A DNA stretch of 64,000 bases, from positions 20,815 to 84,814 of the forward strand of contig SIJG01000186.1 of NCBI GenBank assembly GCA_023374025.1, given 5' to 3'. Both the position numbers and the translations under genes were made by a program. Source of the DNA: Heterodera schachtii (Eukaryota; Nematoda; Chromadorea; Rhabditida; Heteroderidae). Below are positions 1-58,782 of this stretch, piece by piece (position 1 is the stretch's first letter; each line of letters starts with the position of its first letter). The notes below the pieces were generated by a model. It saw only the letters and a program-made list of their open reading frames with translations. It was not told the DNA's origin and did not search any database.

Positions 1-3000
1 GGGATGGACGGCGACAATTTGTTCGACGTTCTTTACGCGGGTAAAATTTTAAAATTGCCTATTTTTCCCGTTCATTTAAACCCCAATTTTAGCCAAAAAG
101 TACAACATTGTCGGCCTGGTCAGCGCCTGCTTGGACTTTCCCATCCCTTCGCTGCCCAACGTTTTCTTCGCCTTTGCCCAGGCGCGTTTTCTCGAAGAAA
201 AGGTTGGCATTTTTAATTTATTTAGCCGATAATTAGGGGATTTGAAAATAAATGACATACCATTGTAAAATAATCAGCGATACTGAAAATATACTAGGAT
301 TAATTTTCAAAAAGAAAAACACACCCTAAAAATCGAATTTTTGAATTCAACCCCCCCCCCCCCCACAAAAAGAAAAAAATCTCGGGAGTTTGCCAGAGAA
401 GAGAACTTTTCTCCTCATTGTAAGTACGAATTTTTTGACCTCTTGGAATTTCATAGTTTATTTTGTTCCTAAAAAAGCCCCTCACAATTTTTAAATTTCC
501 TTCATTTTTTTCAAATTTATTTTGGGATTTTGCTCGCCGTTGCATGGAATACATTGAACAAAACATGGACACTTTGCACCAATCGGACGCCTTTTTGGAA
601 ATCGGCCAAAGTTTGCTTTGCGAAGTTTTGGACCGAGAAAAGCTGGCAATTGAAGAAGAACTTACGATTTGGCGGATGGTAATGCTAATTCAACACAAAT
701 AATTGGGGCAATTGTTTTTCACATTTAATGGGGCCTAATTAATAATTAATTTGTTAATTTTTTTGGCACTCCATTGGGCCGACGGACAATGCCGCCAAAA
801 GGGTTTCGAATGTTCGGCAGAGAATCGGCGCAAAATGCTCGGCCCGGCACTTTTCAAAATTCGTTTTCCACGCATTTCGAAGGAGGACTTCACCGAACAC
901 ATTGGTAATAATGAACTGTTCCAACTCAAAAAATTTACAATATCTTATGCCATCAAAAAACACTAATAGACCAATAATAGAGGGCAGGACCAACTTTTTT
1001 TTTATAATTTTGTTAAAATTTTTAAACCTTTTCCCAACGGGGCCTATAGGCACCTTCGGACGACAGATAATTTAGAATTTTTCAAAAATAAAATTTTGAA
1101 GCCGAAATTTCGCCGGCAAAATCAAAAAATTAAACTTAGAATTTTTTAAGAAAAAATCTTAGAATTTTTTTAAAGAAATTTTCATGGAAAAAATTTGAAA
1201 AGTTTTTTAGATGTTTTTTTTATCCAAACATTTGCGCCTATGGCCAAAATCGGATTCAAACTTAATTTTTTGCAAACTCTGAAAGCCTAAATAAAATTGA
1301 GCACAATCTTCTAGTTTATTAGGAGCATTAATTCTCTGCTGTTTGAATAATTAATGATTCTTTCAAAAATTACTAGTTATCTATTATTATAATTATCATT
1401 TTCTATCACTTATTTAATGCTGTTTACAATTAGAGGGTTGCCCCGGTCGAGAAAAATATCATGTTCCGGGTCAATTGACAAATTTTTATAATATGTTCAA
1501 AATCGATGAAAAGCAATAAAAAATTTATGCTTCGCGCTTTTTCAATGCAATTCTCGAACAAGGAGTCTGCGTTTTACGGCGCTTTTTCCAAAAAACTTTT
1601 GGTGACACGCTGGGCGGCGGTGCCGATAGGCGCCGCCGGGAGTAATTTATCAATATCAACAAATGCTTTAAAAGAAATAAATATAATTTTTCTTAAAAAT
1701 TTCTCCTTCACCAATTTCCTTATCTACCTAATTTTCCCCCAGCCCCCTTTTTTACCAGTGCTTATTTTAACCCGAAACCCGACCCAAATCATCGAGTCGA
1801 GAAAAATTTCGGGTTTCGGGTGACCTTCGGCAACCCTGCTGTTTAAGTTTCAGGGCTTGAAAAAAATGGTTCCCGGTGATTTCGTCAGTGATTGATTTCG
1901 TCAGTAGAAATTAATTCATAAAAAAGCGTACACCTAGCCAAAAAGTACAAAAAATTCAAAAAGCCGATTGGTTTAAGAACAACTTGTAAATATTCTAACG
2001 GTTTTTACAAAATCCTCTGCAAGTATTCTCAAATTGTTGCCCTGCAGAACCCATTTTGAATTACGCTTTCATGTGCCCACTTATTCCGTAAGCTGGGCTA
2101 CGCGAAAATCAGCTATTCGTACCCACTCGAAAAAGTAAATGTTCGCTTCATACATGCTCGGTTGACGTCTATGATTTGATTTGCAGACAGAAAAATGACT
2201 AAGAGCATCAACATACTCAAAATGCAAAACAACAAAATGATTTGTAAGAAACAAGGGGTGGAGCTCGGACATCCCGCGATCGTGGACCGCGCATGGCATA
2301 TTCAAATTGCCGCGGTTGCTGATCACGGTCCTGCTCAATCCCTGGTAATAAATTTAAAAGCGAAATTCCGAGAAAATGAATAATGAATGGCTTGCGACCA
2401 CATAGAAATGAACATACAAGAGATAAAAGTAGCAAAGACGAGGTACAAATACTAATTATTTTATGATATGTAAATGACCGGCCCAAATATAGGTTGGCAA
2501 TCGAGCAAATAATTTTATTTTGAATTTAAATATCGAACGAATTTTAATTTATGAAAATTAAATATTTTTTTTCGTAAAAAAAATGATTATTATCACTGAC
2601 GAAATCCCTTACTGACGAAATCACTTCTGACGAAATCACATGTTACCGAAAAAAATTGCGTTTGAATCCGATTTTGGACATATAAGCGCAAATGTCTGAA
2701 CCACGGAATGAATGGTCGTCGCGCGGTGCCGGAGGGGAATTTGGGACTTTTTCACAACATCTGGATGCTAAACAACACATAACTCTCTTCTATGACTGAC
2801 AATTTTCAGTGCCCTGCGGTGTGCTGAGCAGCGACGAGTTGGTCAGCGTTTTGCTGTTCCACGACCACCCCGGCGGCGGAGTCTCTTCGCTGTACCCTTT
2901 GCCCTTCGCCACCCATCGCTTTGGCTACACACTCAACGGACGCGTGGCACTGCACATGGACAAGTTGGTCGACTTCACCGAAGAGAAGCAGCCCGGGGAC

Positions 3001-5467
3001 AGCAGCAGAGAGTACGGCCAGCACTTGGAGCAAACCGTCCTTTTGCGGGGACTGCCGTGGACAATTGCCGCGGATTTGCACGTCCGCCAGTGCGTGCTGA
3101 ACAAGCGCTTGGACCTGTTCCTGTACTGCAACGTGGACAGTGCTGGTAGGTGACGTCGAAAATGGAAATGGACAAACCGAAAAAATGGAGGGGTGGGGGG
3201 AAACGCATAAAATTATAAAAATTAATATAAAAATGAAAAGAAAATTCAAAACACCAAATTTAAATAAAGAAACTAAAAAGTTTAGTTTTTGATTTACTAC
3301 TAGTGAACGACAAAACGACTTTTTTAATGAAAAAACATCGTTATAAATTGCAACGACGAAAAAGTCGTTTATTAATTATAACGATGTTTTTTTAAAAAAA
3401 GCGCTCGAATTTACGAAATATTTTGTAAAAAATGAATAATAATGCCAAAAAATTTATTCGTTAATTCAAATAATACATAATTCAATGCTTTTTGTATTGA
3501 AAAATTTAATATCTCATAACTCGCTTAATACCCAACTAAACAACCTAATATCGGTATCATCCGAATAATTATGAAAATAGCTTTTTAAAAAAAGAGGTGA
3601 TAGAAGTTTGACGCATAGAAAAGTTGTTTTGAAAAATCATTTATGTTACGCGCTTTTTCCAAAAAAACCTTTGGAGAACCGGGGGGGGGGGGGTCCGGCG
3701 GTGCCGATAGGCGCCGCCGGAAAATTTTTTTGAAAATTCTGTGCACTTTGTTAACAGGTTTTCACTAAAAACTGCCAAATTTTCAGAATTTTTAATGAAT
3801 TTTGTTAAGAAAATAGCCAAATTTTACAGAAATTTATTGGATAAAAAAATCAAATTTAAAAAACAAAATCATATAAAAAACGAAGTCCTATCAAATTCTC
3901 TTCGCCTTTACGAAGTCTCTTCTCTCTTTTCCCTTCGTCTCCGACCTTTATCAGATTTTTTCACATTTTGTCCCAACCAATACGAAGTCCCCCCTCTTTC
4001 GGCCCCTCATACGAACGAAGTCAGGGGGGGGGTCGACCCCCCCCCCCCCCCCCCAATTTCATGTATGAAGCCAGGATTGAAATCCTTAATCCAAAATGTT
4101 ATAATAAATTTTTTTTCTATCTATTTTTTAAGTTGGTAGTGCTTTTATAACAATTCACCCAAAATTTATAGCATTTTATCGGTGTTAGTTTTTCGGATTT
4201 TAGAGACATGAAAATGGTATGCTAAACGGAGAGAAAAAGAAATACCAAATTACCATTGCTTCGTGCTTTTAAAAAAAAAATCGTTAAAACATCGTTTGGC
4301 GTTCTGAACATCGTTATAATTAATAAACGACTTTTTCGTCGTTGCAATTTATAACGATGTTTTTCCGTTAAAAAAAGTCGTTTTGTCGTTCACTATTTAC
4401 TACTAGTACTTCTTTATTATTACAATGGTATTTTGCTTTTCATACATGTGCAAGGGGTGTCTCGACACACCCCCTCCCCTCGTCGTAAGAGGCCTCGGAC
4501 ACCCCCCCCCCCCCCCTCGTTCGTCGTAAGGGGGCGGCTGTAAAAGAGGGAGGGGGCGTCGTGGAGCGGGTGGGCCGTCGTGGAGGGGGGGGGGTTGTTA
4601 ACGAAGGAGGAAAATTAAAAATTTACACAATTTTCTTAGCGAAATTCATACAAAATTCAAAAAAAAAATTTCGGCGGCGCCTATCGGCACCGCCGGCCCC
4701 CCAAAAAATCTTATTTTTTCTTTAAAAATTAGCCAAAAATCTCAAAATTTGGTCATTTTTAGACAAAATCTGCTAACAAATAATATTAAATTACAAAAAA
4801 AATTCCGGCGGCGCCTATCGGCGCCGCCGAACCCCCCCCCCCCCCCCCTGGCCCCCAAAAGTTTTCAAAAAAGCACGCTGCAAAAAAAAACGTTTTTTTT
4901 TAACAAAAAAAGTCGTCGACTTGCCAAAAAAGCCATAACTTTTTTGAATTTAAACTAAATTTTTTTAATTTTGCAGCTAATAGAGTACACTTAGAGCTTT
5001 CAAATGATATCAACAATGTTGGATTTGGTTGACAATGAAAAAACTTATAGCTAAAAATCCCAAAATTTCGCCGCCGAAATTTTTAAAAAAATTTGGAAAT
5101 TTTCAGGAAAAAATTCGGGAGCGGGTGTTAGTTAATGAGCTTTTCCTGTATATTTTCGGGAATTTAGTTCAAACGTGGAGCTGCAATTGCACTGTCACAC
5201 GTCACATTCCGGCACGGACGGAGGGCAAAGCGGATTATGTGGACGAGGGCTTAGTCGGCGCCATTCACTCGCCGGACAAAGGCGTGCTCTTCCACCATTT
5301 CATGCCGTTTAAAGTGTTATTTTATAATAATTGATGTGCTCGATTATAAATTTGTAAACGAATTGAAAATTGCCATTTCTCCGCAGTTTTGGCGGGACTC
5401 CAACCGCGTCACGTACCGAGCGGAGGACGAAGCGCTGACATTGGCATTTGATGTGAGCACACCGTGA
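1..5467 (+). CDS. BTB-BACK-MATH protein gene A (5' truncated by window edge)
   Basis: Exons that keep phase: <1-40, 93-202, 478-678 (or 526-678), 766-904, 2810-3145, 5168-5313, 5387-5467 (TGA). The first exon is the end of the BTB domain (FDVLYAG). The next three are BACK-like (LPNVFFAFAQARF, ARRCMEYIEQNMDTLHQSD, LHWADGQCRQKG). The last three are MATH-like (LLRGLPWTIAADLHVRQ, TWSCNCTVTRHIPAR, final VSTP). Proteins of this architecture are typically Cullin-3 adaptors: BTB binds the ligase scaffold and MATH binds substrate; that role here is inferred from the family. The splice acceptor expected in front of DFARRC reads GG, but an in-phase AG at 477 would add 16 residues. The intron 679-765 contains no AG at all before the conserved GCA-CTC exon start. 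Introns 905-2809 and 3146-5167 are inflated by transposons. It is nearly identical to gene B, so either could be the functional copy, or both may be decaying. Confidence 0.75.
1613..1640. repeat. dispersed GC hairpin motif
   Basis: A near-palindrome containing GGTGCCGATAGGCGCC flanked by CGGCGG/CCGCCGG. It is preceded at 1601 by the recurrent flank CTTTTTCCAAAAAACTTTTGG. Variants recur at 3695, 4672, 4805, 21486, 48418 and 49327, so it marks a dispersed repeat family and not a local feature. Confidence 0.7.
1868..2647. mobile_element. non-autonomous DNA transposon with tandem-repeat TIRs
   Basis: Left end GGTTCCCGGTGATTTCGTCAG-like; right end, reverse complemented, GGTAACATGTGATTTCGTC. The unit GTGATTTCGTCAG is repeated twice on the left and three times on the right in opposite orientation. 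It is flanked by a perfect 9-bp duplication GAAAAAAAT (1859-1867 and 2648-2656). The interior encodes nothing recognisable. The 9-bp duplication fits Mutator-like elements. It is inserted in the right arm of an older repeat. Confidence 0.75.
3302..4394. mobile_element. MULE-like MITE with ~95-bp TIRs
   Basis: About 95-bp terminal inverted repeats begin AGTGAACGACAAAACGAC and are rich in repeated ACGAC/GTCGTT motifs. They are flanked by a perfect 10-bp duplication ATTTACTACT (3292-3301 and 4395-4404). The interior holds a GC hairpin repeat (3695-3720), poly-G/poly-C tracts and no credible gene. It sits in the intron before the penultimate exon of gene A and is absent from the duplicate gene B. 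Confidence 0.8.
3695..3720. repeat. dispersed GC hairpin motif with poly-G flank
   Basis: CCGGCGGTGCCGATAGGCGC followed by the pairing half, preceded by a run of 13 G and by the flank GCGCTTTTTCCAAAAAAACC at 3651. It lies inside the 3302-4394 element. Confidence 0.7.
4672..4696. repeat. dispersed GC hairpin motif (minus orientation)
   Basis: CGGCGGCGCCTATCGGCACC followed by GCCGG, the reverse complement of the motif at 1613 and 3695. Confidence 0.65.
4805..4830. repeat. dispersed GC hairpin motif (minus orientation)
   Basis: CCGGCGGCGCCTATCGGCGC plus pairing bases, followed by a poly-C tract (about 4832-4849) and then the reverse complement of the CCAAAA...TTTTGG flank. This is the second copy within 150 bp. 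Confidence 0.7.
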
Positions 5468-5584: not shown

Positions 5585-6235
5585 GAACAGGCCAACTCCA
5601 TCCCGAGCCAACTGCCAACTCCTTCCCGAGCCAACTCCGTCCCGAGCCAACTCCATCCCGAGCCAACTGCCAACTCCTTCCCGAGCCAACTCCGTCCCGA
5701 GCCAACTCCGTCCCGAGCCAACTCCGTCCCGAGCCAACTCCGTCCCGAGCCAACTCCGTCCCGAGCCAACTCCGTCCCGAGCCAACTCCGTCCCGAGCCA
5801 ACTCCGTCCCGAGCCAACTCCGTCCCGAGCCAACTCCGTCCCGAGCCAACTCCGTCCCGAGCCAACTCCGTCCCAGTACAAAAAGGACCAACTCCGTCCC
5901 AAGCAAAATTTAAAGAATTTTTAAAAAATAATCAGAAGACCGGGAATTCCCGCCCCGGTCCCGGCCACGTACAACCCAGTTTTTTTTGATACAAAAGTAC
6001 AGGAAAAACACAGGCTCCTCGAGGCCTGGATCCAGACCTGTACCCCGAATTTTTTCAATGAAATGCTTAGGGTAATTTCCAACAATTATCAAATGGCGTA
6101 ATGCTATATTATTCATCAGTTATTTATTTTTTAAATAAATACAATTTATTTTTAAAAAATTTTAAATTTTTGCTTGGATGGAGTTGGCCCTTTTTGTACT
6201 GGACGGAGTTGGCGGGACGGAGTTGACCCCTACCG
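5585..6235. mobile_element. non-autonomous DNA transposon with 16-bp tandem-repeat TIR
   Basis: The left terminus is an array of about 18 copies of GCCAACTCCGTCCCGA. The right terminus carries three inverted copies and ends, read inward, CGGTAGGGGTCAACTCCGTC. There is a perfect 9-bp duplication AATGAAGTG at 5576-5584 and 6236-6244. The terminal CGGTAGGGGTCA is identical to the left end of the transposase-bearing element at 14,528, which links the two despite different repeat units. Open frames through the array (Ser-Arg-Ala-Asn-Pro repeats) are a side effect of the repeat, not genes. Confidence 0.85.
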
Positions 6236-8341: not shown

Positions 8342-8349
8342 TAACTAAT

Positions 8350-8625: not shown

Positions 8626-9097
8626 GGTAATACTGCCGATGGTCCCCCCCCCTTTTTGGAAAAATTTTTTTTCTATTATAAAAAGTCGTGAAAACATGTT
8701 TAATGGGCTTTTTAGGGTCGCTGATCACGAATCTGACATTCATTTTAGCCAATTTCGAATCCCGGACCCGAATTCGAACAAAAAGTCGAAAATTCAAAAT
8801 TTTCGAAATTCTTACTTTTGTCCTAAATTGATCTAAATAAGCTAAATTTAGTCAAAAAGCATTGGAATATCAAAGAATGGTCATTCTGTACAGCTACGAA
8901 CATAAAAGTGAATTTCAAAATTGTGAGTTTTCGACTTTTTGTTCGAATTTGGGTCCGGGATTCGAAATTGGTCCAAATGGAGGTCATATTCGTGATCAGC
9001 GACCCTGAAAACTCCCATAAACATGTTTCCAAGAGTTTTCAGAACAAAAAAAAATTTTCTTCAAAAAGGGGGGGGGGGGACCATCGGCAGTATTACC
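8626..9097. mobile_element. non-autonomous inverted-repeat element
   Basis: Two ~190-bp arms begin GGTAATACTGCCGATGGTCC, include a poly-C/poly-G tract, and meet around CGACTTTTTGTTCGAA. The flanks GTGGTCTG (8618-8625) and GTGGTCGG (9098-9105) make an imperfect 8-bp duplication. Related arms occur at 11,230-11,450, 50,490-50,880 and 57,180-57,345. Open frames through it are not genes. Confidence 0.7.
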
Positions 9098-10480: not shown

Positions 10481-11053
10481 CGTGGTGAGTCGTTCCAAAA
10501 AAATCTCAGTGTGGGCGATCCACAAAAAACTCAGTGATTGATTGGTCATTTTCCGGAAGCCTATCGCACCACTTTCGGGGCACCAAAAGTGCCTGATCAG
10601 GAACCCGGACCGGCCCGGTTAAGAACAATTTTTTGTTCAATTTTTCAAGGGCTATCTTCCAGGCCGGGTCCGGTTCTCGATCCATTCACTTGGAGCCCAT
10701 CATGGGTCGGGCATATCTGCCGGAGGACCCTCAGCCTCGCCCCCGACCCTGTCGATGGCCAACCCAAGCTAAGCGTGCCGGTACCAGCGGCTTTTTTGTA
10801 CATTTCGATGAGCTCTACAAAACGGTATCAATGGCGGCCGGCTATGTCTACTACAAATGGAGAAAATTGGCGAGAAGTGATGTCAAAAATTGAAAAATTT
10901 GAAAATGACTTGCGTCCCGCCGTACATTAGTGTTAACAGGACGGCACGGTGTTTTGTGAATTGAATAATTAAATTTATTTATTTATTTTTATCGATCACT
11001 AAGTTTTTTGTGGATCGCCCTCACTGAGCTTTTTTGTGGAACGACCTAGCACC
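10481..11053. mobile_element. non-autonomous transposon with tandem-repeat TIRs
   Basis: Ends CGTGGTGAGTCGTTCC and (inverted) GGTGCTAGGTCGTTCC, each followed by two tandem copies of a ~25-bp unit containing CCACAAAAAACTCAGTG. Perfect 9-bp duplication GTTGTAAAA at 10472-10480 and 11054-11062. The ~400-bp interior is shared with the fold-back element at 57,991-58,782. Its open frames (e.g. VPVPAAFLYISMSSTKRY) are conserved at DNA level but carry no known domain. Confidence 0.85.
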
Positions 11054-14527: not shown

Positions 14528-16811
14528 CGGTAGGGGTCAGTTGCGTCTGGCCAGTTGCGTCTGGCCGATTGCGTCTGGCCAGTTGCGTCTGGGGCCGGTT
14601 GCGTCTTGGGCCAGTTGCGTCTGGCCAGTTGCGTCTGGCCAGTTGCGTCTTAGTACTTAAGGGGCCGGTTGCGTCTCAAACATTTTTGAATCTATTTTTC
14701 AAAGGATACAATTTTTGAGGAATAATTTTTGTATTAATTAAATTAAGTACATATAGAGAATTACAAAAAATCTATTTTAATTAAAACGAAAATAACAACT
14801 AAATAATAATACAAAATAAAAAGAAAATCATTGATTCATTTGGTAATTGCTGGAAATTCCCCTAAGCATTTCATTAATCAAATTCAGGATTAATTGGGTT
14901 TTGGCAATATTGGTGATCATTTTCGATTTGCTGCTGCTCTTTTTCTCGATTGTAGCGCTCCAGAATCCTCAAAATTCATTGTGCGCTCATACACACTCCA
15001 TTCTTCGGGACGAAACAATGGGCGGGTGCGTGTGCCGTTGTTGCGAAGCCGTCCAACGTAGTTGATTACAAACCTTTAAAATTACTAATGACAGTGAAAA
15101 AAAATTAAATTCAACCAACCAATCGAGAACTCCCTCAAGCTCATCCGGCAGATGATCTTCTAGGGCTGCCAGTGCCGGTGTGAGGTCCTCAAGCGGCACA
15201 AACGCCAGCGAAGTGATCATTTTGACAGCTTGTGCAAAGGCAGCGTCGGTTTTGAAACGCTAAATTTGAGTTTTCAAAATCAAAAAATTTTTTATTTTGC
15301 TTACGCGAGTTTGTTCGTCTGTTAGGCGAGATTTCATGTTGCGCACCAAGTGGAAGAGACAAAAGTTGATTGAGCATTGTGGATGTTTTGCGCGGAGTGC
15401 GTTGACCATCGCCTGTTCGAAGTCCATGGATGCGTTTTTCGGTGCAAATGCTGGCCATCGGTTGCGGACCATGTCAAACATCTTTTCATACGTGGACTGC
15501 GACTTGCATGTCAGCAGGCAGTGAAGGACAGGAAACACCCATTTATCACGACTGAAATTGGGAGAAAAACCATTAAAAAAAACCAAATTGGCAAAAAAGT
15601 ACCGCGCCAAAATGACGTAAAGTTGCGAAAAGAGCGTCGGCGCACTTGCGAATGTTCCGTCAGCGTAAATGTACTTCATTTCGGAAGCCCAATTTCCGAA
15701 AGAAAGCCGGCCAAAAATCAGAATTCTTAAATTTAAAAAATATGTGAAAAGCTCCCCTTAAAACACACCGCTGTTGTCCGTCTCGCCCATTTTCGGTGTA
15801 TGTTCCAGAATCCGCAAGAAGGAAAAGCTCCTGCGCTTCTTCGGTGCGTTTGTAGATTCGGTACTGCTCGGGAAGTTCCAACTCTTGAAGGGTTTGCGGC
15901 ACTGGCGGCGGCAGTTCAATTTCATGGCGGACTCGCTTCACCAGCTTAAAAATAAAAATGTGAAAAAGTAAAAAAAATAGCTTTTTAACTTTTTTTGTGG
16001 CGTTCTTTGTTGGAATGTTCGCCATTACTGGTGTGGCAATTTGCTGAAGTGTGTGTGCCCTGATTGCCGCTGGCGGTTCCATCGTCTCAGCGGCACGCCG
16101 CTTTATGCCAGTGACGATTTTTTGTGTGATGACATTTGCCGCGCTGTGGTTGCAAGTGTGGTCGCCAACGGTCTTCAGCACGACATCATTTAACGTTGTG
16201 TGGATTCGTCCTCGGCATTTGAATTCATCTCGCTGATGTTCACAGCGCCAAAATTTCACGTCACGGTCAGCATTGAACATATGGAAGACATAGAGGCATC
16301 CTTCATGTTCGAATTTTTTGTTGTTTCGTTTCGTTATTATTTGATTGTTTTCCATTTTCGGGCTATATTAAAAGACTTAAACAAATGAAATGTAAAAAAA
16401 TTCAAAAACAAGTGCACTATGTTTCCACCCCGCACAGTTTCACTCCGAATTAGTTAACCCTTGAAACTTTTTTAATTTTAAATTTAATTTTCTCAAAAAA
16501 TGCTTGTAACTTTCATACGTATGCGTTTTAAGAAAAAATTATTAATATTTGCACCGATTTTTCAAAATTCTACTTCCTTTCGTTTTTGGGGCTTCGGATA
16601 AATCAGAAAAATTATTATTTTGAACCAAAAGTTTGAGACGCAACCGGCCCCTTAAGTACTAAGACGCAACTGGCCAGACGCAACTGGCCAGACGCAACTG
16701 GCCAGACGCAACTGGCCAGACGCAACTGGCCAAGACGCAACCGGCCCCAGACGCAACTGGCCAGACGCAATCGGCCAGACGCAACTGGCCAGACGCAACT
16801 GGCCCGTTTCG
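14528..16811 (-). mobile_element. autonomous Mutator-like element with tandem-repeat TIRs
   Basis: Terminal arrays of the 14-bp unit GGCCAGTTGCGTCT: about nine copies at 14,530-14,682 and about a dozen inverted copies at 16,631-16,805. Ends CGGTAGGGGTCAGTTGCG and CGAAACGGGCCAGTTGCG; perfect 9-bp duplication GTGAAGGGC at 14519-14527 and 16812-16820. The interior carries a FLYWCH/MULE transposase on the minus strand. A 9-bp duplication plus a MULE transposase defines a Mutator-superfamily element. It interrupts the MATH exon of gene C. Confidence 0.9.
14917..16355 (-). CDS. FLYWCH zinc finger + MULE transposase
   Basis: The start ATG is at 16,355. Residues 1-70 form a FLYWCH-type zinc finger (HEGCLYVFHMF, FWRCEHQRDEFKCRGRIHTT, then DHTCNH). 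After short introns come LVKRVRHEIELPPPVPQT, then the MULE catalytic region: YADGTFASAPTLFSQLYV with the first catalytic Asp, DKWVFPVLHCLLTCKS, SMDFEQAMVNALRAKHP with the second, CLFHLVRNMKSRL, and the C-terminal NYVGRLRNNGTRTRPLFRPE ... WSVYER, stop near 14,917. Exons are approximate (16,355-15,990; 15,955-15,760; about 15,690-15,560; 15,530-15,310; 15,258-15,110; 15,070-14,917). No internal stop is needed if the small introns are real, so the element may be young. The enzyme would bind the terminal repeats and cut and paste the element in the nucleus. It could supply transposase to the non-autonomous elements in this window. Confidence 0.82.
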
Positions 16812-19358: not shown

Positions 19359-22300
19359 ATGTCGAAACCGAAAACATTGGTGGAACGTATGAGACTGTTG
19401 TTCAGCACCAGCAATGGGGCGGACATTCAATTTTTGGTTGGGGAAAGCGACGAAAAAGAAGCAAGTGGAGAAAGAACAAATACTAATTGGAATTTTATTA
19501 AAAAATAAATAAACATTGTCTAATTGTTTAGTAATTTGGCTTTTTTAAGCTAATTCTCGCCCATAAAACAATTCTGGCCTCGGCCTCCGACGTGTTCGAA
19601 GCAATGTTCCGATTTGACGCCGGAAATACTGGTCGAAAAAGTGTGCATAAACAAACAAAGAATCACATAAAGCCTTAAAACAATGCGGCACGCTTGTTTG
19701 GTTTATGGCACAAAAATTGGCTATAAAAAATGAACAATTTTTTAGGCCATGGTCAAGGCCGCCCGCTTACCGGGCGGGGAACTTCGGATCACCATTAATT
19801 TTTGCGGCATAACTTTTTCATTAGCAAACAATTTTTCCGTTAGCTTGAAAGCATTTCATGCTTTCCATCACCAATGTAAGTGTTAAAGTAACCCACAATA
19901 ATTCATAAATGGCCAAAAAAAATTTCGGCACCAGGAAAAAAATGTCGCGGGTTCAGGTGAGTGATAACCCTGGTTCACACACAGTCAGCGCCTCCCTGAC
20001 TCATCCATTTCTTACAAAATTTTGCCATTTTTTGTTGACATAAACCAACCAAATGAATGCCCTAATTCCGTTTATAAACGCCGCTTTTCCCCCTTTAGCC
20101 TCCACAGCGAAAGTGCCAAGCCCCGTGGTGGTGCCCGATGTTGAGGCGGAGGCATTCAGGGCGATGTTGGGCTTCATTTACACGGACGATTTGAGTGGGA
20201 TGGACGGCGACAATTTGTTCGACGTTCTTTACGCGGGTGAAATTTTAAAATTTGACTCTTTTTCCCGTTCATTTTAAACCCCAATTTTAGCCAAAAAGTA
20301 CAACATTGTCGGCCTGGTCAGCGCCTGCTTGGACTTTCCCATCCCTTCGCTGCCCAACGTTTTCTTCGCCTTTGCCCAGGCGCGTTTTCTCGAAGAAAAG
20401 GTTGGCATTTTTTTTATTTAGCCGATTATTAGGGGATTGGAAAATAAATGACATACCATTGTAAAATAATCAGCGATACTGAAAATATACTAGGGTTAAT
20501 TTTCAAAAAAAAAATGGAAGACTAAATAAAACCCCTCTCCCCAAATCCAAATAAAAAATTCAACGAAAAATATTAAAAAAAAGAAAGAAAAATTGGTATA
20601 ATAAGTAAATAAATGTTTACACATATAAATTTTTGATTTTTAATTTTTTCTAAAAATCTAAATCCGGAATTTTAAAAAAGAAAAACACACCCTAAAAATC
20701 GAATTTTTGAATTCAGCCAAGCCAAGGGTCTGTCTACGCCCTTTCACCCCCCCCCCAAAAAAAAAGAAAAAACCGGGAGTTTGCCAGAGAAGAGAACTTT
20801 TCTCCTCATTGTAAGTACGAATTTTTTGACCTTTTGGAATTTCATAATTTATTTTGTTCCTAAAAAAGCACCTCACAATTTTTAAATTTCCTTCATTTTT
20901 TTCAAATTTATTTTGGGATTTTGCTCGCCGTTGCATGGAATACATTGAACAAAACATGGACACTTTGCACCAATCGGACGCCTTTTTGGAAATCGGCCAA
21001 AGTTTGCTTTGCGAAGTTTTGGACCGAGAAAAGCTGGCAATTGAAGAAGAACTTACGATTTGGCGGATGGTAATGCCAATTAAACCAAATAATGGGTCAA
21101 TTGTTGTTTCACATTTAATGGGGCCTAATTAATAATTAATTTGTTAATTTTTTTGGCACTCCATTGGGCCGACGGACAATGCCGCCAAAAGGGTTTCGAA
21201 TGTTCGGCAGAAAATCGACGCAAAATGCTCGGCCCGGCACTTTTCAAAATTCGTTTTCCACGCATTTCGAAGGAGGACTTCACCGAGCACATTGGTAATA
21301 ATGAACAGTTCCAACTCAAAAGATTTACAAATTTTATGCCTTCAAAAACCTTCATTTCATTAGACAAATGCCCAATTTTCTTTTCTTTAAATTCAAAGAT
21401 TAAATAAAGATAATTTTTTAAGAAAATTTGTTAATTTTGGGGACAGATTTCTTAAGTGAAATTCTCAAAAATTTCATAAATTTTGTCCGGCGCTGTCTCT
21501 CGGCACCGTCGGCGGATCACTATTGTTTTATTGTTAGAAATATAACTTCAAAACCTCTCAAAGATTGACATTTTTGGCCGAAATTCTGTTACCAAATGGG
21601 TTTAATATGGTATTTTTTTCGGTTAAAAATCTGTCGGAAATTTTTTAACCATATTTGGCCAAGGGTTTTCGCCTAAAAATTCCATGTGCAAAGGATTCGC
21701 CAACCCAAGGGGCCCAAATAAATTTTATCAAAAATGGACAGTTTTGCGGTCAAATTTTAGAAATTATAATTTGTGCGTAAGGGAGGGCTAAATGAATTGT
21801 TCTCCTGTTCCTAAATTTGTGATTTTTTAAACCATTTGGGTGCTAAAGACTGACAATTTGTGGCCATTTGCAGTGCCCTGCGGTGTGCTGAGCAGCGACG
21901 AGTTGGTCAGCGTTTTGCTGTTTCACGACCACCCCGGCGGCGGAGTCTCTTCGCTGTACCCTTTGCCCTTCTCCACCCATCGGTTGGGCTACACACTCAA
22001 CGGACGCGTGGCACTGCACATGGACAAGTTGGTCGACTTCAGCAACGACCAGCAGCAGCAGCAGCAGCAGAACGGGGACAGCAGAGAGTACTTCCACCAC
22101 TTGGAGGAAACCGTCCTTTTGCGGGGACTGCCGTGGACAATTGCCGCGGATTTGCACGTCCGCCAGTGCATATCGCGCAAGCGCTTGGACCTGTTCCTGT
22201 ACTGCAACGTGGAAAGCGCCGGTGGGGGACGGGCGAAAATGGAAACGGACAAACCGAAAAACGGAGGGGGGGGGGAGGAAACGCATAAAATTATGAAAAA

Positions 22301-23375: not shown

Positions 23376-24004
23376 GGGGGGGGGGCGGAAGTTTTGGCAC
23401 CAGAAATTTGGGCACCGGAAGTTTGGGCACCAAATTAAGGATTTAAAAAATAAAAATATTTTCAATTGTCTATAAATTGCAACCATCTAATTTAAAACCA
23501 TAATAGATTTAATAAAGTTAGGAATAGAAAGTTTTCTTAACGAATATTCACTCGATTTAAGCATGCTTGTTTTGCTAAACTCATTACCTTAATTCTATAT
23601 TAATGCCATACATATGTATTATTTGTAATTTATAACATTACAAGGCTCGGTCCAAGACTTAAAATTTTATGAGTTTAAATTGAATTAGACGGGTCTCTTG
23701 TTTATTTCGGGCCCAACTAAGCCGGTATTGAGGTCTAAGTCCAAAAAGAACTAGTACACGTTTAACTCTACGTTTAAACAACTGCAAAAATGACTAAATA
23801 ATAAGATTGCCAAGTTTCCATACATAAATTTTTTGATTTTCAAGAACATATAATTTTAAGACACAAGGGTTGTTAAAATTTACTAAATTTTAATGATTTA
23901 TATAACATTTTATATATTTATTTTGTTTTATTTTTTGAAATCCCTCCCTCTGGTGCCCAAACTTCCCGGTGCCCGAATTTCTGGTGCCCAAACTTCATGT
24001 CGCC
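23376..24004. mobile_element. non-autonomous transposon with tandem-repeat TIRs
   Basis: The left end is a G-tract and then GGAAGTTTTGGCACCAGAAA, with ~16-bp units GGAAGTTTGGGCACCA. The right end has three inverted units (GGTGCCCAAACTTCC) and finishes GTCGCC. Perfect 8-bp duplication TTTAAAAT at 23368-23375 and 24005-24012. The duplicate locus near 7,110-7,125 (ACATTAAAATCAGAGATT) lacks it. AT-rich interior, no gene. Confidence 0.82.
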
Positions 24005-24437: not shown

Positions 24438-26954
24438 ATGTTTAAAAGTTTGGTGGATCGGATGAAAGTTTTGTTGACCAAGGCCAAAGGGGCGGACATT
24501 CACTTTTTAGTTGGGGAGGGAGAGGAGAGAGAGGCGAGTTGGTCCAATAAAATTTTAAATTAAATAATAATTATTTTATATTTAATTAAAATTATTTTTT
24601 CCCTATTTCCAATTTCATTTTTTCTTTCTTTTTAAGCTTCTCAAAGCGCACAAATGCATTATGGTGAATGCTTCGGATGTGTTCGAATCGATGTTCCGTT
24701 TTGATGGCCAAAACGAAAAGGAAAAAAGTAAAAAAAAAAAATGGAAAACCCTTTATAATTTAAATAAATAAATTAATATTTTTTAATTTTAGCTTCCGCC
24801 GATTGTCCTCCCGTAATTGAGCTGCCCGATGTTGAAGCAGCAGCGTTCAAAGTGCTGCTCAGCTTTATTTATGCGGAAGATTTGAGCGAATTGAACGGAG
24901 ACAATGCCATGGCAGTGCTTTACGCCGGTGGAAATATTTCGATAAATAATTAAATATTTTTTTCAATTTAAATCATTTTATCTAATAAATACAACATCTC
25001 TCTGCTGGTCAGGGCCTTCTAAGACTTACCCATTAATCAATTGGCCAATGTTTTTCTCGCTTTTGACCAGTCTCGCCTCCTCAATCAAACAGTAAAATTT
25101 TAAAAAATTCAATTAACTCATTTTAATTTTATTTTCCAGGATTTCTCTCGTCGCTGCTTGGATTATATTGACAAAAATGCGGAATCGCTGTTGCATTCGG
25201 AGCAATTTTTGCAAATTGATCAAAATTTGTTGTGCGAAATTTTTGGACGCGACCAATTGGAAATCTGTGGAGAAATGTCAATTTGGAAAGCTGTAAACAA
25301 TTGGCATTTAAACATTACTATAAAAGCGGGCTTTCACCCGATTTTTTTACCAAATTGTTAACTATTTTAAATTGCTTTTTTTCTGTCATTTCGTAGGCAC
25401 TCCGTTGGGCCGACGCGCAGTGCCGTCCAAATGGCATCGGAAGCTCCGCAGAAAATCATCGCGCTATGCTCGGCTCGGCACTGTTCCAAATTTGTTTTTC
25501 TCTCATCTCAAAGAATGCATTTGACCAAAATATTAATAGGGTTTTGTTTTGTGTTTGGTATTATTTTTCATTCTTTTACAGCTTCGTCCGACGGACTGTT
25601 TTCGGACGAAAAGTCGGGCATTTGCCATTTCCATTCCGACGTGTGCTCTGTCGGAATTTGCACGAGAGAAAGTGGGGGAGTGAACGGAGCAACGACGGCA
25701 TTATGTACATAAAGGGTTTGCCATGGAAAATATTGGCAAAAGCGATGAGAAATAATGACACCGACGAAAAATGCCTGGGCATTTTCTTTTGGTGCACCGC
25801 CCCGAAAGAAGGTGGAATAATTGAATTGAATTTAAAACATTATTTATTGCATTTAAGACCCGAATTAAAGCTGCAAATGTTCGGCAACTTTTCGAATCGT
25901 TTCGCATTTGAATAAAGTGTGGAATAGGACGAGACAATTGCCCGAAAGGACTTTTAGCAATGTGTCCAACCAATGGGGCACCATTTTCATTGATTTTGAA
26001 GTGAGCGCAATTGGAAGGAATGCCATTAATTAACAAAATTTAAAATGTCAATTTGAGGAATTAATGGAGCCGTGCTATGGGATGTATGATAAAAAGGGAG
26101 CCGGAAAATCCGACACTGGAAAATCCGACACCGGAAAATCCGACACTGGAAAATCCGACACAAGCAGAAAATCCGACACCGATGGAAAATCCGACACTAG
26201 CGGAAGATCCGGCACTGGAAAATCCGACAACAACTTTAAATTTTAAAAATAATTTTGATTGTTTGAGTTAATATCTGCCTAGGTTTACCATATTCTCGAA
26301 TTGAATTTACAGAGAATTGTTTTTATTTAAATCAATTTTTTCACTAAAAATGGTCTGATCAGCTTCGGTTGCCTGGGGAGGATTAGGTCCAGGTGAATTC
26401 TCATGATTTTGCCCTCCAGCAGAAGACATTGACAAACTCAGGGGTGGGTTGGAACCGTATGATTCGAGAACAGAGGACGGTATGGCATGCAAAATGGAGA
26501 ATATCCCCCCCCCCCATATGCTAAAAACTGTTAAGCACTTAATTTATATTCTCGATTCCAAGGATCACAGAGACTATTTTAATTATTTTTTTTGAGATAA
26601 TCAAAAAAGGGCATACAAAAAATATAAATATATATGCCTACCTTAGATTAGATAGATTATGGCAATAAAATATTTATTTTGGATAACTTCAGTACTGTAA
26701 CTTTATTATATGTATTTTGAACATTAACTCAAAGAATCAAAAAATTATTTTGAAAATTTAAAGTTGGTGTCGGATTTTCCAGCGGTGTCGGATTTTCCGC
26801 TTGTGTCGGATTTTCCAGAGTCGGATTTTCCAGAGTCGGATTTTCCGGTGTCGGATTTTCCAGTGTCGGATTTTCCTAGAGCCGATGTCACTACAGAAAA
26901 GGGACGAAGCGAAGCGAACAAGATTGTCAGATGCAATTACTAACCACCCATTAA
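24438..26954 (+). pseudogene. BTB-BACK-MATH pseudogene E
   Basis: Exons 24438-24533 (GADIHFLVGEGEERE, GC donor GAG|GCGAGT), 24637-24727 (HKCIMVNASDVFESMF), 24793-24927 (VAVLYAG-type end of BTB), about 24,995-25,091, 25140-25292 (BACK, FLQIDQNLLCEIFGRDQL), 25397-25536 (LRWADAQCRPNG), 25582-25811 (MYIKGLPWKILAKAM, CLGIFFWCTAPKEG), 25858-26000 and 26058-26095 with its end at about 26,892-26,954. Disabling changes: no AG acceptor and an in-frame TAA after LLVRAF in exon 4; lost donor after exon 6; frame changes before RSNDG; the conserved Trp of WSC changed to stop (AAT-TAA-AGC); and a repeat-flanked transposon inside the last exon. It is the more complete partner of fragment D and not expected to make a protein. 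Confidence 0.82.
26096..26880. mobile_element. non-autonomous transposon with 15-bp tandem-repeat TIRs
   Basis: About nine units of GGAAAATCCGACACC at 26,098-26,232 face seven inverted units (GTGTCGGATTTTCC) at 26,765-26,877. It is inserted in the last exon of pseudogene E: the intact counterpart in D reads DKKGDKVTLAAIDYRKGT across this point. About 20 bp of target were lost and only a weak GAGCCG duplication remains, so the boundaries are less sure. Open frames through the array (Lys-Ser-Asp-Thr repeats) are artefacts. Confidence 0.78.
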
Positions 26955-27247
26955 TAACTAATTAATTGATTAGTCTTAATTATATTGCATCAAATCATCA
27001 TATTTTTGGAAATTTTGAATTAAATTATTATAATTTACTCAACATGTAAAGTTGGCATTTCCTAGCGATACCCTAATGATTGTGACTGGGATTAAATGGA
27101 TTACAAGCTAGAATTAAACTGGTGCGAGACCCAGACCGGGATTGGTTCCGGAACTCCGGCTTTCTTTTCAGGTCCCGGACAATCCCAGTCTCGAATGAAA
27201 TTTAGTATTTAGCGAAGCTCGAAGTATCCTCTAATTTGGTGCTATGT

Positions 27248-27362
27248 GATTTTGACAATGATTGATCTCGACAGTGAGTGATCTCCGCGTGATTTCGACA
27301 ATGAGTGATTCCGACAGTATCAAAAAATTGTGAATTCGACAAAGTGATTTCGACAGTAATTT
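27248..27362. repeat. one-sided array of GTGATTTCGACAG-type repeats
   Basis: Degenerate direct repeats of GTGATTTCGACAATGA/GTGATTCCGACAG. They resemble the terminal unit GTGATTTCGTCAG of the element at 1868-2647, but no inverted partner was found nearby. Probably a remnant transposon end. Confidence 0.5.
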
Positions 27363-33325: not shown

Positions 33326-33928
33326 GGGGCTCCCGGACAATCGAACAGTGGACAATCCGACAGTAAAACACACAAAAAGATAAGAAAATGCCGTCGCCGA
33401 ACGGGACCGATTGTGCCGTATCAAGAAAAAAAAGTGGGTTTTTGGGAATAACCCTAAAATCAAAAGATATGAATGTGTGATTAGTATCGAAGGTGTGGAA
33501 CAGGTCATTCAACAGCCAATTTCGTTTTGTTCGTTCACCATTAAGCTACTTTGTCAAAAAATGAAAGAAGGTAGGCATTGGAATTTGATTGTTCAAGATT
33601 TCACCAATAATTCACAGGACGGCATTCGTGTGCGGGAATGGCAAGAAAAAGCGCTTATGTTCAACAAATGTGCAACCGTCGCTTATAAAATGCCAAATCC
33701 AAATTATTTTGCAACGAAATCTTGTTTTAGATTTTAGACTGCATTCGCACTTTTTTTTTATCTGCCTATTTTTCTTTTTTGTTGATGTGGCACAATCGCT
33801 ACCCTTCGGCGATGGCATTTTCTTGTCTTTTTGTGTCTTATACTGTCAGAATGTCCATTCTCCGATCGTCCACCTCTGTCAGATTGTCCTAACTGTCGGA
33901 TTGTCAACTGTCAGATTGTCCGGGGGCC
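33326..33928. mobile_element. non-autonomous transposon with tandem-repeat TIRs
   Basis: Ends GGGGCTCCCGGACAATCG and, inverted, GGCCCCCGGACAATCTGAC. The unit is about CGGACAATCCGACAGT, with two copies left and about five inverted copies right, and the arms extend inward (AAGATAAGAAAATGCC and CGGACGGGACC-like blocks pair across the element). Perfect 8-bp duplication GCATAAAG at 33318-33325 and 33929-33936. The middle holds a 100-residue open frame (see next entry). Confidence 0.82.
33436..33737 (+). CDS. open frame inside the 33.3-kb transposon, unknown
   Basis: A continuous frame reads FGNNPKIKRYECVISIEGVE, then MKEGRHWNLIVQDFTNNSQD, then MPNPNYFATKSCF, and stops at 33,737. Its composition is protein-like, unlike the flanking repeat, so it could be captured host sequence or a remnant of a transposon gene. 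No start codon context or domain is recognised. Confidence 0.3.
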
Positions 33929-35567: not shown

Positions 35568-38500
35568 ATGTCAAATCCTCAAATTTATCTTTATTTTTTT
35601 ATTATTTTGCTCAAATGTTTTGTTCCAACAAAAGCACCTTTTCCTGGCACGCAATCAAAATTTGGCGTAGGTCAAGAGGGTGCACCCAGCTTTAACTTTG
35701 TAATTTCAACGAAATTATTTAATTATAATTAGTATTTTATTATTTAAAAAAAAATATTTTTTTTTGCATTAGCCACCACCGCCAAAGTCTCATCCGCCAA
35801 ATAATCCCTCGCCGCCATCGTCGAAGTTGTCACAACCCTTAGGCCCACCGCACCCGCCAAGCACTCAGGAAGAGGACCAATCATTTCAGCCCCCAGGCTT
35901 TGAAGAATTTCCAGAGGCGCCATCAGTGGATAGCTGATGCGGAAAAGCCACCGGGAACAAATGAAAATGGGGTGGCGCCGTTGCCAATGCCACCGGCACC
36001 GTTAAGCAGCGGTAAAACACCGACAAAGCAAACAAACAATTGGACTTATCACCGCCCATTGCACCCCCAGGTTTTGCAAGTAAACCGAATACGGTACAAA
36101 CAAATGGGACGATGACAGCAGCAAACCGAATGACAGTTTTAACGAACACGACAGCACAAACTACAGCACTGACACAAACAAATTATCCAACAACCAAACC
36201 ACTGATTCAAACGAATCCACAAACAATTCCAGCAAACACTCAAACAATTTACCCAACAACACAAACACCGATCCAAACAATTTACCCAACTACACAGACA
36301 CAGGTTCAAACAATTTACCCAACAACGCAAACATCGGTTCAAACCATTTACCCAACAAAACTAACACCAACCCAAACAATTTACCCAACAACGCAAAAAC
36401 CGACTCAAACCATTTACCCAACAACGCAAACACCGATCCAAACAATTTACCCAACAACGCAAACACCGATCCAAACAATTTACCCAACAACGCAAACATC
36501 GGTTCAAACCATTTACCCAACTACGCAAACACCGATCCAAACAATTTACCCAACAACGCAAACATCGGTTCAAACCATTTACCCAATAACGCAAACACCG
36601 ATCCAAACAATTTACCCAACAACGCAAAAACCGACCCAAACAGTTTACCCAACAACGCAAACATCGGTTCAAACCATTTACCCAACAACGCAAACTCCGA
36701 TCCAAACAATTTACCCGACAACGCAAAAACCGACTCAAACATTGTACCCAACAAATCAAACATCGGTTCAAACAATTTACCCAACAACGCAAAAACCGAT
36801 TCAAACAATTTTCCCAACAATGCAAAAACCGATCCAAACAATTTACCCAACAACGCAAACATCGGTTCAAACCATTTACCCAACAAAACTAACACCAACC
36901 CAAACAATTTACCCAACAACGCAAAAACCGACTCAAACATTGTACCCAACAAATCAAACATCGGTTCAAACAATTTACCCAACAACGCAAACTCCGATCC
37001 AAACAATTTTCCCAACAATGCAAAAACCGATCCAAACAATTTACCCAACAACGCAAACATCGGTTCAAACCATTTACCCAACAAAACTAACACCAACCCA
37101 AACAATTTACCCAACAACGCAAAAACCGACTCAAACCATTTACCCAACAACGCAAACATCGGTTCAAACAATTTACCCAACAACGCAAACTCCGATCCAA
37201 ACAATTTTCCCAACAATGCAAAAACCGATCCAAACAATTTACCCAACAACGCAAACATCGGTTCAAACCATTTACCCAACAAAACTAACACCAACCCAAA
37301 CAATTTACCCAACAACGCAAAAACCGACTCAAACCATTTACCCAACAACGCAAACACCGATCCAAACAATTTACCCAACAACGCAAACACCGATCCAAAC
37401 AATTTACCCAACAACGCAAACATCGGTTCAAACCATTTACCCAACTACGCAAACACCGATCCAAACAATTTACCCAACAACGCAAACATCGGTTCAAACC
37501 ATTTACCCAATAACGCAAACACCGATCCAAACAATTTACCCAACAACGCAAAAACCGACCCAAACAGTTTACCCAACAACGCAAACATCGGTTCAAACCA
37601 TTTACCCAACAACGCAAACTCCGATCCAAACAATTTTCCCAACAATGCAAACATCGGTTCAAACCATTTACCCAACAACGCAAACACCGATCCAAACAAT
37701 TTACCCAACAACGCAAACACCGATCCAAACAATTTACCCAACTACACAGACACATGTTCAAACAATTTACCCAACAACGCAAACTCCGATCCAAACAATT
37801 TTCCCAACAATGCAAAAACCGATCCAAACAATTTACCCAACAACGCAAACATCGGTTCAAACCATTTACCCAACAACGCAAACACCGATCCAAACAATTT
37901 ACCCAACAACGCAAATACCGATCCAAACAATTTTCCCAACAACGCAAACACCGATCCAAACAACTTACCCAACAACGCAAACACCGATCCAAACAATTTA
38001 CCCAACAACGCAAATATCGATCCAAACAATTTACCCAACAACGCAAATACCGATCCAAACAATTTACCCGACAACGCAAAAACCGACTCAAACATTGTAC
38101 CCAACAAATCAAACATCGGTTCAAACAATTTACCCAACAACGCAAAAACCGATTCAAACTTTTTACCCAACAATGCAAACGCCGATTCAAACACTTTATC
38201 CAACAAACCAAACATCGTTTCAAACTTTTTACCCAACAACGCAAACACCGATTCAAACATTTTACCCAACAAATCAAACACCGGTTCAAACATTTTACCC
38301 AACAATACAAACATATTCACGAACAATTCAAACAAACACGCAAACACTTAACCCATCAACACAAGCACCGGTTCAAACATTTTACCCAACAAATCAAACA
38401 TCAGTTCAAACAAATCTTCCAACAATTTCATTGTTTATGCCAACAAATAATACAGTTAAAGCATTACCTGCATCCCTTCCAACGGCATCCCAATCACCCA

Positions 38501-52640: not shown

Positions 52641-52659
52641 TAGAATTGAGCAGGAACAG

Positions 52660-53560: not shown

Positions 53561-53567
53561 TAATCAG

Positions 53568-53956: not shown

Positions 53957-54176
53957 ATAATCAGTGATCAAAGGTTAACGAACGGTGCGGGGAGGAAAAT
54001 GGGGCAAAATGAAAATGAATTAATACGCATCCAACAAGGCCATACAATTGTTTAGGTCGGTATTTGTTGAAAATAAGAATAAAAGCACAAATGGAAATAA
54101 ATAATAATTTAAAATATGCAAAAATATAATACTCAGTGTGAATTTGGTGAAATAAAAAAAATAATTGTTCGATTAA

Positions 54177-57100: not shown

Positions 57101-57609
57101 ATTGAAAGGGGAGACCTTAGGCTTTTCAAAATTAGATAGTGCCTAATCGGGAAAAGAGTTTGTCTAAAAGTTTTCAAGGCCATCACTGATTATGCATTTG
57201 GCATCCATTTAGACCAATTCATAATGAATTCGAATCAATGTCTAAAAATAATTTCAAAATTTCGACTTTTTTTTGTTTAAATTCGTTCGGGTCAGGGATT
57301 CGAATTGGTCGAAATGGATGTTCGGGTGTTATGTTAACCGACAAAAAAGCAAATTACCTTTGATAATTTTATGAATGTCAAAACTAATAAATGTATTAAG
57401 TAATTTTATTTTTCAATTAATTATGTTATTTCCAATTTATTATTGATAATCAAACAATTTCATTTCTTTTAGCGTTTTATTTATTTGTTTATTTTTCATT
57501 CCTTTAAAAATTGTTTACTTTCACAAGATTTGACGCCATAATTGCTATGTTTGCACGGTCGACTGCAAACGGAACAATTGAAGGACTGTTTAATAGAGTT
57601 GAGCTTCAT
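54177..57609 (-). CDS. nuclear hormone receptor
   Basis: Exon 1 (57609-57519) gives CSVCSRPCKHSNYGVKSC. Exon 2 (57094-57011) continues in phase with ESCKHFFRRSILLMKEYKC and TNGGKCEIEK. Exon 3 (from 56807) gives NYAVCKRCRLNKCLTVGMNP. Together these supply all eight zinc-binding Cys of a C4 nuclear-receptor DNA-binding domain, with P-box CESCK. Ligand-domain exons: about 56,035-55,773 (LLYLIMVKHLMEAEQK, then FKIVKTFPSFEQLIISDK), 55639-55476 (ALYSNIAMPLVVLSKGFYSV), 55068-54956 (HRKLSTEEFVLVRAIVYSHM), about 54,790-54,690 (SEAEKYSSLLMRNLQ) and 54,375-54,177 (ALRYVELMGMIECLFNTGAN, stop). The frame shifts by one base near 55,945 and the phase into the 54.75-kb exon is unclear, so an assembly error or early decay is possible. 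The N-terminal region before the first finger is only about 11 residues, typical of nematode receptors. Ligand unknown. Confidence 0.82.
57180..57345. repeat. diverged inverted-repeat element in receptor intron 1
   Basis: The paired blocks CATCCATTTAGACCAATTC and GAATTGGTCGAAATGGATG, with CGACTTTTT between, are a shortened relative of the 8.6-kb element. Confidence 0.5.
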
Positions 57610-57990
57610 CTATTAAATTTTCAAAAATAATTTTATATAAAATTAACAAAAAGCATTGAAATTATTATTATTTTTTAATATTAGAGTTGATTAGGACCGG
57701 ACCGAGCCGGGAAATCTCCCGGTCTTCCCAGGTCTCGTCTCGGTTTTTGTCAAAATCCCTGGTCCCTACCAATCCAATTTTTACAATTAAAATTAGTGAA
57801 GAAAATGAAAAAAGTGAATGAAATATAAAAATATTCAATCATTATGTAATGGAGATGGTGAACAAAGAGTAATTTTACAATATTTAGTGAAGAAAATGCA
57901 AATAAAATGCGGCGCAAGAAAAGACCAAGCGAAAATTGATTTGGCAAATGAATAAAAAAAATATTTTTATTTTAGTAAGAATTTAATTTA

Positions 57991-58782
57991 GGTGCTAGGT
58001 CGATCCACAAAAAACTCAGTGTGGGCGATCCACAAAAAAACTCAGTGATCGATTGGTCATTTCCGGAAGCCTATCGCACCACTTTCGGGGCATCAAAAGT
58101 GCCTGATCCGGAACCCGGACCGGCCCGGTTAAGAATAATTTTTTGTTCACTTTTTCAAGGGCTATCTCTCAGGCCGGGTCCGGTCCTTGATCCATTCACT
58201 TGGAGCCCGTCATGGGTCGGGCACATCTGCCGGAGGGCCCTCAGCCTTTTCCCGACCCTGGCGATGTCCAACCCAAACTAAGCGTGCCGGTACCAGCGGC
58301 TTTTTTGTACAGCTCGATGAGCTCTACAAAACGGTATCAATGGCGTCCGGCTGTGTCTACTACAAATGGAGTTGGCGAGAAGTGATGCGAAAAATTGAAA
58401 AATAAAAAAATTTCTCGCAAATTTTCTCCATTTGTAGTAGACACAGCCGGACGCCATTGATACCGTTTTGTAGAGCTCATCGAGCTGTACAAAAAAGCCG
58501 CTGGTACCGGCAAGCTTAGCTTGGGTTAGCCATCGACAGGATCGGGGGCGAGGCTGAGAGTCCTCCGGCAGATGTGCCCGACCCATGACGGGCTCCAAGT
58601 GAATGGATCAAGGACCGGACCCGGCCTGAGAGATAGCCCTTGAAAAAGTGAACAAAAAATTATTCTTAACCGGGCCGGTCCGGATTCTGGATCAGGCACT
58701 TTTGATGCCCCGAAAGTGGTGCGATAGGCTTCCGGAAAATGACCAATCGATCACTGAGTTTTTTGTGGATCGGCTCAGCATG
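57991..58782. mobile_element. fold-back transposon, ~380-bp arms
   Basis: Two near-identical inverted arms (about 57,991-58,400 and 58,420-58,782) start GGTGCTAGGTCGATCC and CATGCTGAGCCGATCC. The left arm has two tandem GATCCACAAAAAACTCAGTG units. Perfect 9-bp duplication TTTAATTTA at 57982-57990 and 58783-58791. Each arm is homologous to the interior of the 10.5-kb element. Open frames on both strands are mirror copies of one another and not genes. Confidence 0.88.

Follow-up and report, generated by a model that had tools for sequence, protein, structure and literature searches.

The window analysed here, a 64-kb stretch of a contig of the nematode Heterodera schachtii, contains eight transposable elements with inverted ends, which we name by their first positions in it (table 1), and comparisons were made with the whole genome (178.5 Mb in 356 contigs). 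All eight had been noticed in a preliminary description of this DNA and were found where it had placed them, and seven are flanked by the target site duplications (TSDs) of 8–9 bp that it had reported, the exception being 26096 (a candidate duplication there, AAAAGGGA, was rejected, since its right copy lies about 20 bp beyond the array and 8-base matches are not uncommon at that search size). As had also been described, the units that make up the ends differ between elements, by family, with one unit at both ends within an element, and the tip CGGTAGGGGTCA is common to 5585 and 14528. The assignment to the Mutator type is supported; 14528 has both a FLYWCH zinc-finger domain and a MULE domain and is the only carrier of recognisable transposase domains among the eight; the description of it as the single transposase element needs one qualification, in that 1868 is, by its alignment, a deletion derivative of a transposase element of the type found at a locus elsewhere in the genome, L021 (77% identity over 247 bp, with the same two tips). 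The term tandem array is generous for 10481 and 57991, two copies of one family (91–94% identity) with one or two units of about 24 bp per end, each arm of 57991 consisting of about 360 bp of ordinary inverted repeat. A program that looks for array pairs, requiring two or more copies of a word on the left side and repetition of its reverse complement on the right, recovers five of the eight (1868, 5585, 14528, 23376 and 26096). In 20 first-order Markov copies of the window it finds no pairs. Elements 10481, 33326 and 57991 escape it and are supported by end alignment.

Profile searches of the genome gave 95 MULE-domain and 93 FLYWCH matches, from which 34 loci (given L numbers here) and 11 short FLYWCH stretches were read. 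The top 21 MULE matches lie in 20 of the loci, read as 10-kb stretches, and the other 14 loci are 4-kb stretches, 13 of these picked for a FLYWCH match beside a MULE match and the last, L029, being a second copy of the 14528 transposase; this non-random set holds at least 35 of the 95 MULE matches, and L022 and L023 in it are near-duplicates. In 25 of the 34 loci the MULE domain lies between the two arrays of an inverted pair, and in three between those of a direct-orientation pair. Within each of the 25 one unit is common to both ends; the arrays sit just inside short tips at both element ends, and these two tips are unlike each other in all 17 elements tabulated (a polarity suggested by three elements, with one tip type always 5' of the transposase, was rejected, as either orientation occurs among the 17). 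When the left halves of the first 20 loci were joined to foreign right halves a pair appeared in 21 of 380 combinations, 19 of them through shared or related unit words and 2 not. TSDs of at least 8 bp flank 25 of 33 elements (the eight in the window and the 25 loci) and 9 of 1056 swapped flank pairs, under a 26-bp limit outside which the L025 duplication, visible in the array-pair scan, falls. Roughly 16 to 19 unit cores can be told apart, the number varying with the treatment of close relatives; they include GATTTCGTCAG (to whose family 1868 belongs), GGACCCACAGACAAA, ACTCGCCGACG, GATTGGGCGCC, TTGGGCCC, TTGGGCCG and TTCCGTCT. Named homologues of the transposase come from Meloidogyne, Globodera, Aphelenchoides, aphids and fireflies; protein P0055 of Globodera rostochiensis is 58–68% identical to pieces of the 14528 transposase. 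An N-terminal FLYWCH domain, a MULE (DDE) domain and a target duplication of 8–10 bp, the marks of the Phantom type, are all present, and among Pfam profiles only FLYWCH and MULE pass the cut-offs, with neither a THAP domain nor a P transposase. These are genuine structures, of a kind already known among transposons.

The arrays are paired across the genome as well. The exact unit pair of 14528 has 74 matches on one strand and 47 on the other (0 for a reversed-pattern control), and the 100 of these 121 matches that were listed fall into 58 arrays, whose neighbours within 3.5 kb are ordered plus-then-minus in 16 cases and in the other three orders in none. That of 26096 occurs 47 times on the plus and 38 times on the minus strand, and all 85 matches form 44 arrays with 12 plus-then-minus neighbours and no other order. 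For the unit of L023 (10 of 10 matches) there are three plus-then-minus pairs and one minus-plus pair, the latter between two adjacent elements. Many arrays remain unpaired in these neighbour counts because partners with fewer perfect units are missed.

FLYWCH domains were aligned for 21 elements with a T-run common to their units. Where the base after the T-run is G the residue at position Cys+4 is N (12 elements) or R (3), and where it is C the residue is D (2) or H (4); among 48 variable FLYWCH columns Cys+4 is the sole full predictor of this base. In 14 elements with GGGC-like cores, residue Tyr+3 is A or V when base b5 is C (8) and D or N when it is G (6), and this column is the only full predictor of b5 among 39 variable ones. 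On a tree of the FLYWCH DNA minus the Cys+4 and Tyr+3 codons, the first of these bases has switched four times independently and the residue class follows in four of four independent pairs; the second shows two switches, which give one to two independent pairs. In three of the four switches the relatives differ at only 4, 5 and 8 FLYWCH residues. L011 and L064 have four such differences, N/D at Cys+4 among them, and L058 and L063 have five; a single identical change, N to D at Cys+4, is common to the two pairs, and column 25 also changes in each, though not to the same residue. The rule was fixed on 20 elements before the unit of L036, afterwards counted in the 21, was read, and it predicts the L036 base correctly. 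Searches of an open-licence literature library listed no paper whose title or abstract opening reports such covariation between unit and FLYWCH domain.

The units of one element also change together. Element 14528 and L035, whose interiors match at 88% identity over 1.4 kb, have the same pattern of steps in their left arrays (14,14,14,16,16,14,14,26), yet the core is TTGCGTCT in 9 of 9 units of the one and TTCCGTCT in 9 of 9 of the other, with 0 differences at the other seven core positions. In the right arrays the core is equally uniform (11 of 11 in 14528, 9 of 9 in L035), and the unit number and one or two steps differ. Genome-wide there are 121 pure GCG unit pairs (spacer GGCC only) and 151 pure CCG pairs (spacer NGCC), and the two mixed kinds number 1 and 0. 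A 388-bp non-autonomous family was sampled through 9 of its 13 listed GCG copies (outer unit pairs 363–365 bp apart) and 5 CCG copies, of which L056 is shorter; TSDs were found by script in 12 of the 14. The interiors of the two groups are 90% identical, and four of the 10 fixed differences between them are the core base of all four units. Like switches are seen in other families (GATTTCGTCAG in L021, GATTTCGCCAG in L016 and GATTTCGACAG in L027; TTGGGCCC in L033, TTGGGCGC in L037 and TTCGGCCC in L063), and the 5585 unit, CCAACTCCGTCC, has C at the switching position. When six full elements are grouped in all 15 possible pairings, the same-core grouping ranks 1 in the arrays and in the opening 105 nt of FLYWCH, 2 in the remaining FLYWCH and 4 in the remaining element. 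The evolutionary puzzle is that some twenty sites per element acquire one new base while their spacing stays.

These elements are, in our view, probably cut-and-paste DNA transposons, FLYWCH-MULE (Phantom/Foldback) by type, and their paired arrays of 13–16 bp units are likely binding sites for the FLYWCH domain of their own transposase, with which the arrays would co-evolve. The unit base tracks single zinc-finger residues, and therefore each array is likely to be a row of transposase landing sites; the suggestion in the preliminary description that the units are multiplied binding sites thus gains backing, of a comparative kind, from the covariation. Several transposase molecules would load on each array, bring both ends together and then cut at the tips. 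After a change in FLYWCH specificity only elements with all units changed would stay mobile, and non-autonomous copies would therefore follow the enzyme that moves them; the joint change of all units might come about by gene conversion between units and between ends. The chances seem to us about even that the genome in addition holds a natural FLYWCH recognition code written by transposons, each transposase having many sites of its own, in which Cys+4 would read the base after the T-run (N or R for G, D or H for C), Tyr+3 the second base (A or V for C, D or N for G), and the arrays would switch in concert with the finger. Sister families in one genome would be ready-made matched pairs of zinc finger and site, from which the specificity of this little-studied zinc-finger class could be read out.

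Several observations weigh against this reading. Nine of the 34 loci (L009, L010, L014, L015, L020, L032, L034, L036 and L042) have no spanning pair, at least L009, L015, L020 and L036 of these having an array on one side. The genome-wide pairing seen for the units of 14528, 26096 and L023 does not extend to the exact patterns of 1868 (100 of 159 matches listed) and 5585 (14 of 14), for which no opposite-strand neighbour was found within 3.5 kb; the right array of L021 has steps that differ from the 1868 pattern, which may be why partners are missing. Eleven FLYWCH-unit pairs (L009, the second domain of L011, L012, L013, L015, L022, L023, L025, L026, L030 and L031) were left out of the alignment because the loop or the unit could not be aligned, the rule gives no prediction for L025 or for the second L011 domain, the ones among them that were looked at, and L057 carries N, not D, with G at b5. 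A further rule, from residue p2 to base b6 (K with C, N with G), was dropped, as L039, L040 and L059 have G in outer and C in inner units. The phylogeny-aware significance of the covariation is modest: a sign test on four pairs gives 0.125 (four pairs cannot reach 0.05), and the probability of a column that changes in every contrast is 0.018 with four contrasts and 0.042 and 0.071 with three, before correction for the choice of base. The prediction of L036 is a weak test because this locus is closely related to 14528 (89% identical), and its FLYWCH was already known. Finally, the left array lies about 200–470 bp from the FLYWCH domain, which makes joint inheritance possible, and some arrays have expanded past any likely need.

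Such expansion bears on an explanation that we consider unlikely, though less so than the others, in which the arrays are functionless minisatellite by-products of slippage or recombination at inverted ends and the correlation with FLYWCH reflects joint inheritance. Satellite-like blocks of transposon-end units lie at C5:1634678-1635725, C13:999628-1001341 and C13:1008571-1009650 (C numbers denote contigs) and in the left array of L019 (L019:2365-4314); the unit word occurs 72 times in L019, the blocks on C5 and C13 have their units on one strand and are about 1 to 1.7 kb long, and all of them look as if ends had grown into satellites. The unequal arrays of 5585 would also fit, as would the variable orientation of the tips relative to the transposase, which might be due to recombination that inverts the interiors. 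The left step pattern of 14528 and L035 is unchanged, however, although every core differs; one mixed unit pair stands against 272 pure ones; the far array, about 2 kb off, and elements without a transposase show the same base difference; and the same-core grouping is best in the arrays and the start of FLYWCH and weaker elsewhere. Ordinary unpaired minisatellites are rejected for the units of 14528 and 26096 by the genome-wide pairing, and the window elements 1868 and 5585 are themselves paired. The proposal that the ends evolve as minisatellites is supported only in part: some arrays have grown as satellites do (L019 and the blocks on C5 and C13), but the best-matched pair keeps its left layout with one core base changed in every unit. 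It is more doubtful still that an array and the adjoining FLYWCH DNA were exchanged as a block between elements, so that the correlation would be linkage, silent on contact. L037 and L041 are indeed more alike in array and FLYWCH start than in the remaining element, but the Cys+4 class changes on four separate branches, three of them between the little-diverged relatives mentioned above, and the far-end array matches too. Least probable of all is that the units bind a host factor or serve as promoter or silencing-related sequence, for although long Mutator ends are said to hold promoters besides transposase sites (PMC3310237 and PMC6446971, from the available parts of these papers), one shared unit would then be expected, and the units instead vary by family and track the residues of their own FLYWCH.

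Table 1. Elements with inverted ends in the window, and parts of the transposase-bearing element 14528 (window positions)
Feature	Position	Strand	Description
Element 1868	1868..2647		non-autonomous; arrays 1877-1905 and 2595-2638; unit GTGATTTCGTCAG; TSD GAAAAAAAT, 9 bp, low complexity
Element 5585	5585..6235		non-autonomous; left array 5591-5899, CCAACTCCGTCCCGAG, ~16 copies; right array 6180-6225, 3 units; spacer AGTACAAAAAGG and one inner unit; TSD AATGAAGTG, 9 bp; right tip CGGTAGGGGTCA
Element 10481	10481..11053		non-autonomous; ~24-bp units (GTCGTTCCACAAAAAACTCAGTG); TSD GTTGTAAAA, 9 bp; family common with 57991
Element 14528	14528..16811	-	transposase-bearing; TSD GTGAAGGGC, 9 bp; tips CGGTAGGGGTCA left, CGAAACGGGCCA right
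14528 left array	14538..14686	+	9 units, core TTGCGTCT; steps 14,14,14,16,16,14,14,26; last step spans TAGTACTTAAGGGGCC
14528 MULE transposase (PF10551) domain match	15338..15544	-	E 1.1e-8
14528 FLYWCH zinc-finger domain	16155..16340	-	E 5.8e-8; Cys+4 = Arg
14528 right array	16635..16804	-	11 units, core TTGCGTCT
Element 23376	23376..24004		non-autonomous; unit GAAGTTTGGGCACCA, 3 copies each end; TSD TTTAAAAT, 8 bp
Element 26096	26096..26880		non-autonomous; unit GGAAAATCCGACACT; no convincing TSD
Element 33326	33326..33928		non-autonomous; degenerate unit GGACAATCYGACAGT; TSD GCATAAAG, 8 bp
Element 57991	57991..58782		non-autonomous, 10481 family; arms ~360 bp; TSD TTTAATTTA, 9 bp

The window holds other repeats as well. 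A short array of GTGATTTCGACAATGA at 27246-27316, near the L027-type unit, adjoins 26096, and a 2-kb satellite with 33-bp sub-units (periods 66 and 99) lies at 36241-38313; the array-pair program finds no inverted partner for either. The inverted-repeat element at 3302-4395 is not of the array type; it has 69-bp arms that are 97% complementary, the terminus AGTGAACGACAAAACGAC and flanks TTTACTACT. A compact palindromic element at 8702-9019, with arms 85% complementary, lies between AACATGTTT repeats. Outside the window, a nested inverted pair of about 33-bp units (GCCACGACGACGACTCGTATAACCAAAAAAT) is present at L029:652-1398, next to a broken copy of 14528. A 477-aa open frame with two FLYWCH domains at C2:3379740-3380885, on a contig for which no MULE match is listed, may be a host gene, and eight FLYWCH matches within about 66 kb at C1:2670570-2737033, with no listed MULE match, are possibly a host FLYWCH gene cluster.

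Long inverted ends of short tandem units, with 8–9 bp TSDs, are known from the Foldback elements of Drosophila and the TU elements of sea urchins. The preliminary description had called the ends in the window unusual, which is not supported, because the like architecture of Tm1, Muta1 and the Foldback/Phantom elements is already in print. The comparisons that follow draw on the available parts of the cited papers. Galileo, of the P superfamily, has a THAP domain that binds sites in its repetitive long ends, with a subfamily preference (PMC3688188); it differs from the Heterodera elements in having THAP and a P-type transposase, not FLYWCH-MULE, and in the position of its sites, which lie at distances of about 70, 560 and 700 bp from the end. 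The same paper, in 2013, called the idea that Foldback/Phantom repeats are transposase sites untested. A 2026 survey of arthropod MULEs proposes that long ends may give cooperative sites, and the words "tandem" and "FLYWCH" are absent from the available portion of its text (PMC13359780). Muta1 of Aedes aegypti, which is active in yeast, has a 504-aa FLYWCH transposase, an 8–9 bp TSD and an end made of a 10-bp tip followed by 9 copies of a 12-bp repeat, and among Aedes MULEs tandem repeats of 9–15 bp occur in 10 of 12 families with long terminal inverted repeats and FLYWCH in 13 of 14 families (PMC5225508). The FLYWCH transposase, the TSD length and the tandem-repeat ends are thus shared with Heterodera; the available part of that paper makes no comparison of unit with transposase. 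The present covariation is the first sequence evidence for the binding-site idea that our literature searches show.

The closest parallel in design is Tm1, a Mutator/Foldback family of Meloidogyne assigned to Phantom (Gross and Williamson 2011, PMC3169594), with FLYWCH and a MULE transposase, mostly 9-bp TSDs, unlike 7-bp tips (A1/A2), a tandem 13–15 bp motif C, a purine-rich motif D followed by one more unit, and derivatives like miniature inverted-repeat transposable elements. Unlike tips, tandem units and an inner spacer with one more unit recur in 14528, L035 and 5585, although the spacer and lone unit are not seen in all families here. Arrays of motif C itself (CGATTCAGTATCGC or CGTTTCAGTATCGC) were not found: its 10-base words occur only twice, each time singly, in a stretch of the window that is duplicated and is no array; window positions of about 160-410 and 20355-20610 are near-identical, like a duplicated gene piece. 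By sequence, then, the Heterodera elements are akin to Tm1 in design and are not Tm1 itself. DNA binding by the FLYWCH domain of Tm1-A was called unclear, and a single base separates the Tm1 core printed for M. incognita (CGATTCAGTATCGC) from that printed for M. hapla (CGTTTCAGTATCGC) (PMC3169594), which is perhaps itself a switch of the kind described above. Where Tm1, in the available text, has one unit family, H. schachtii has many units in one genome, with matching differences in their FLYWCH domains.

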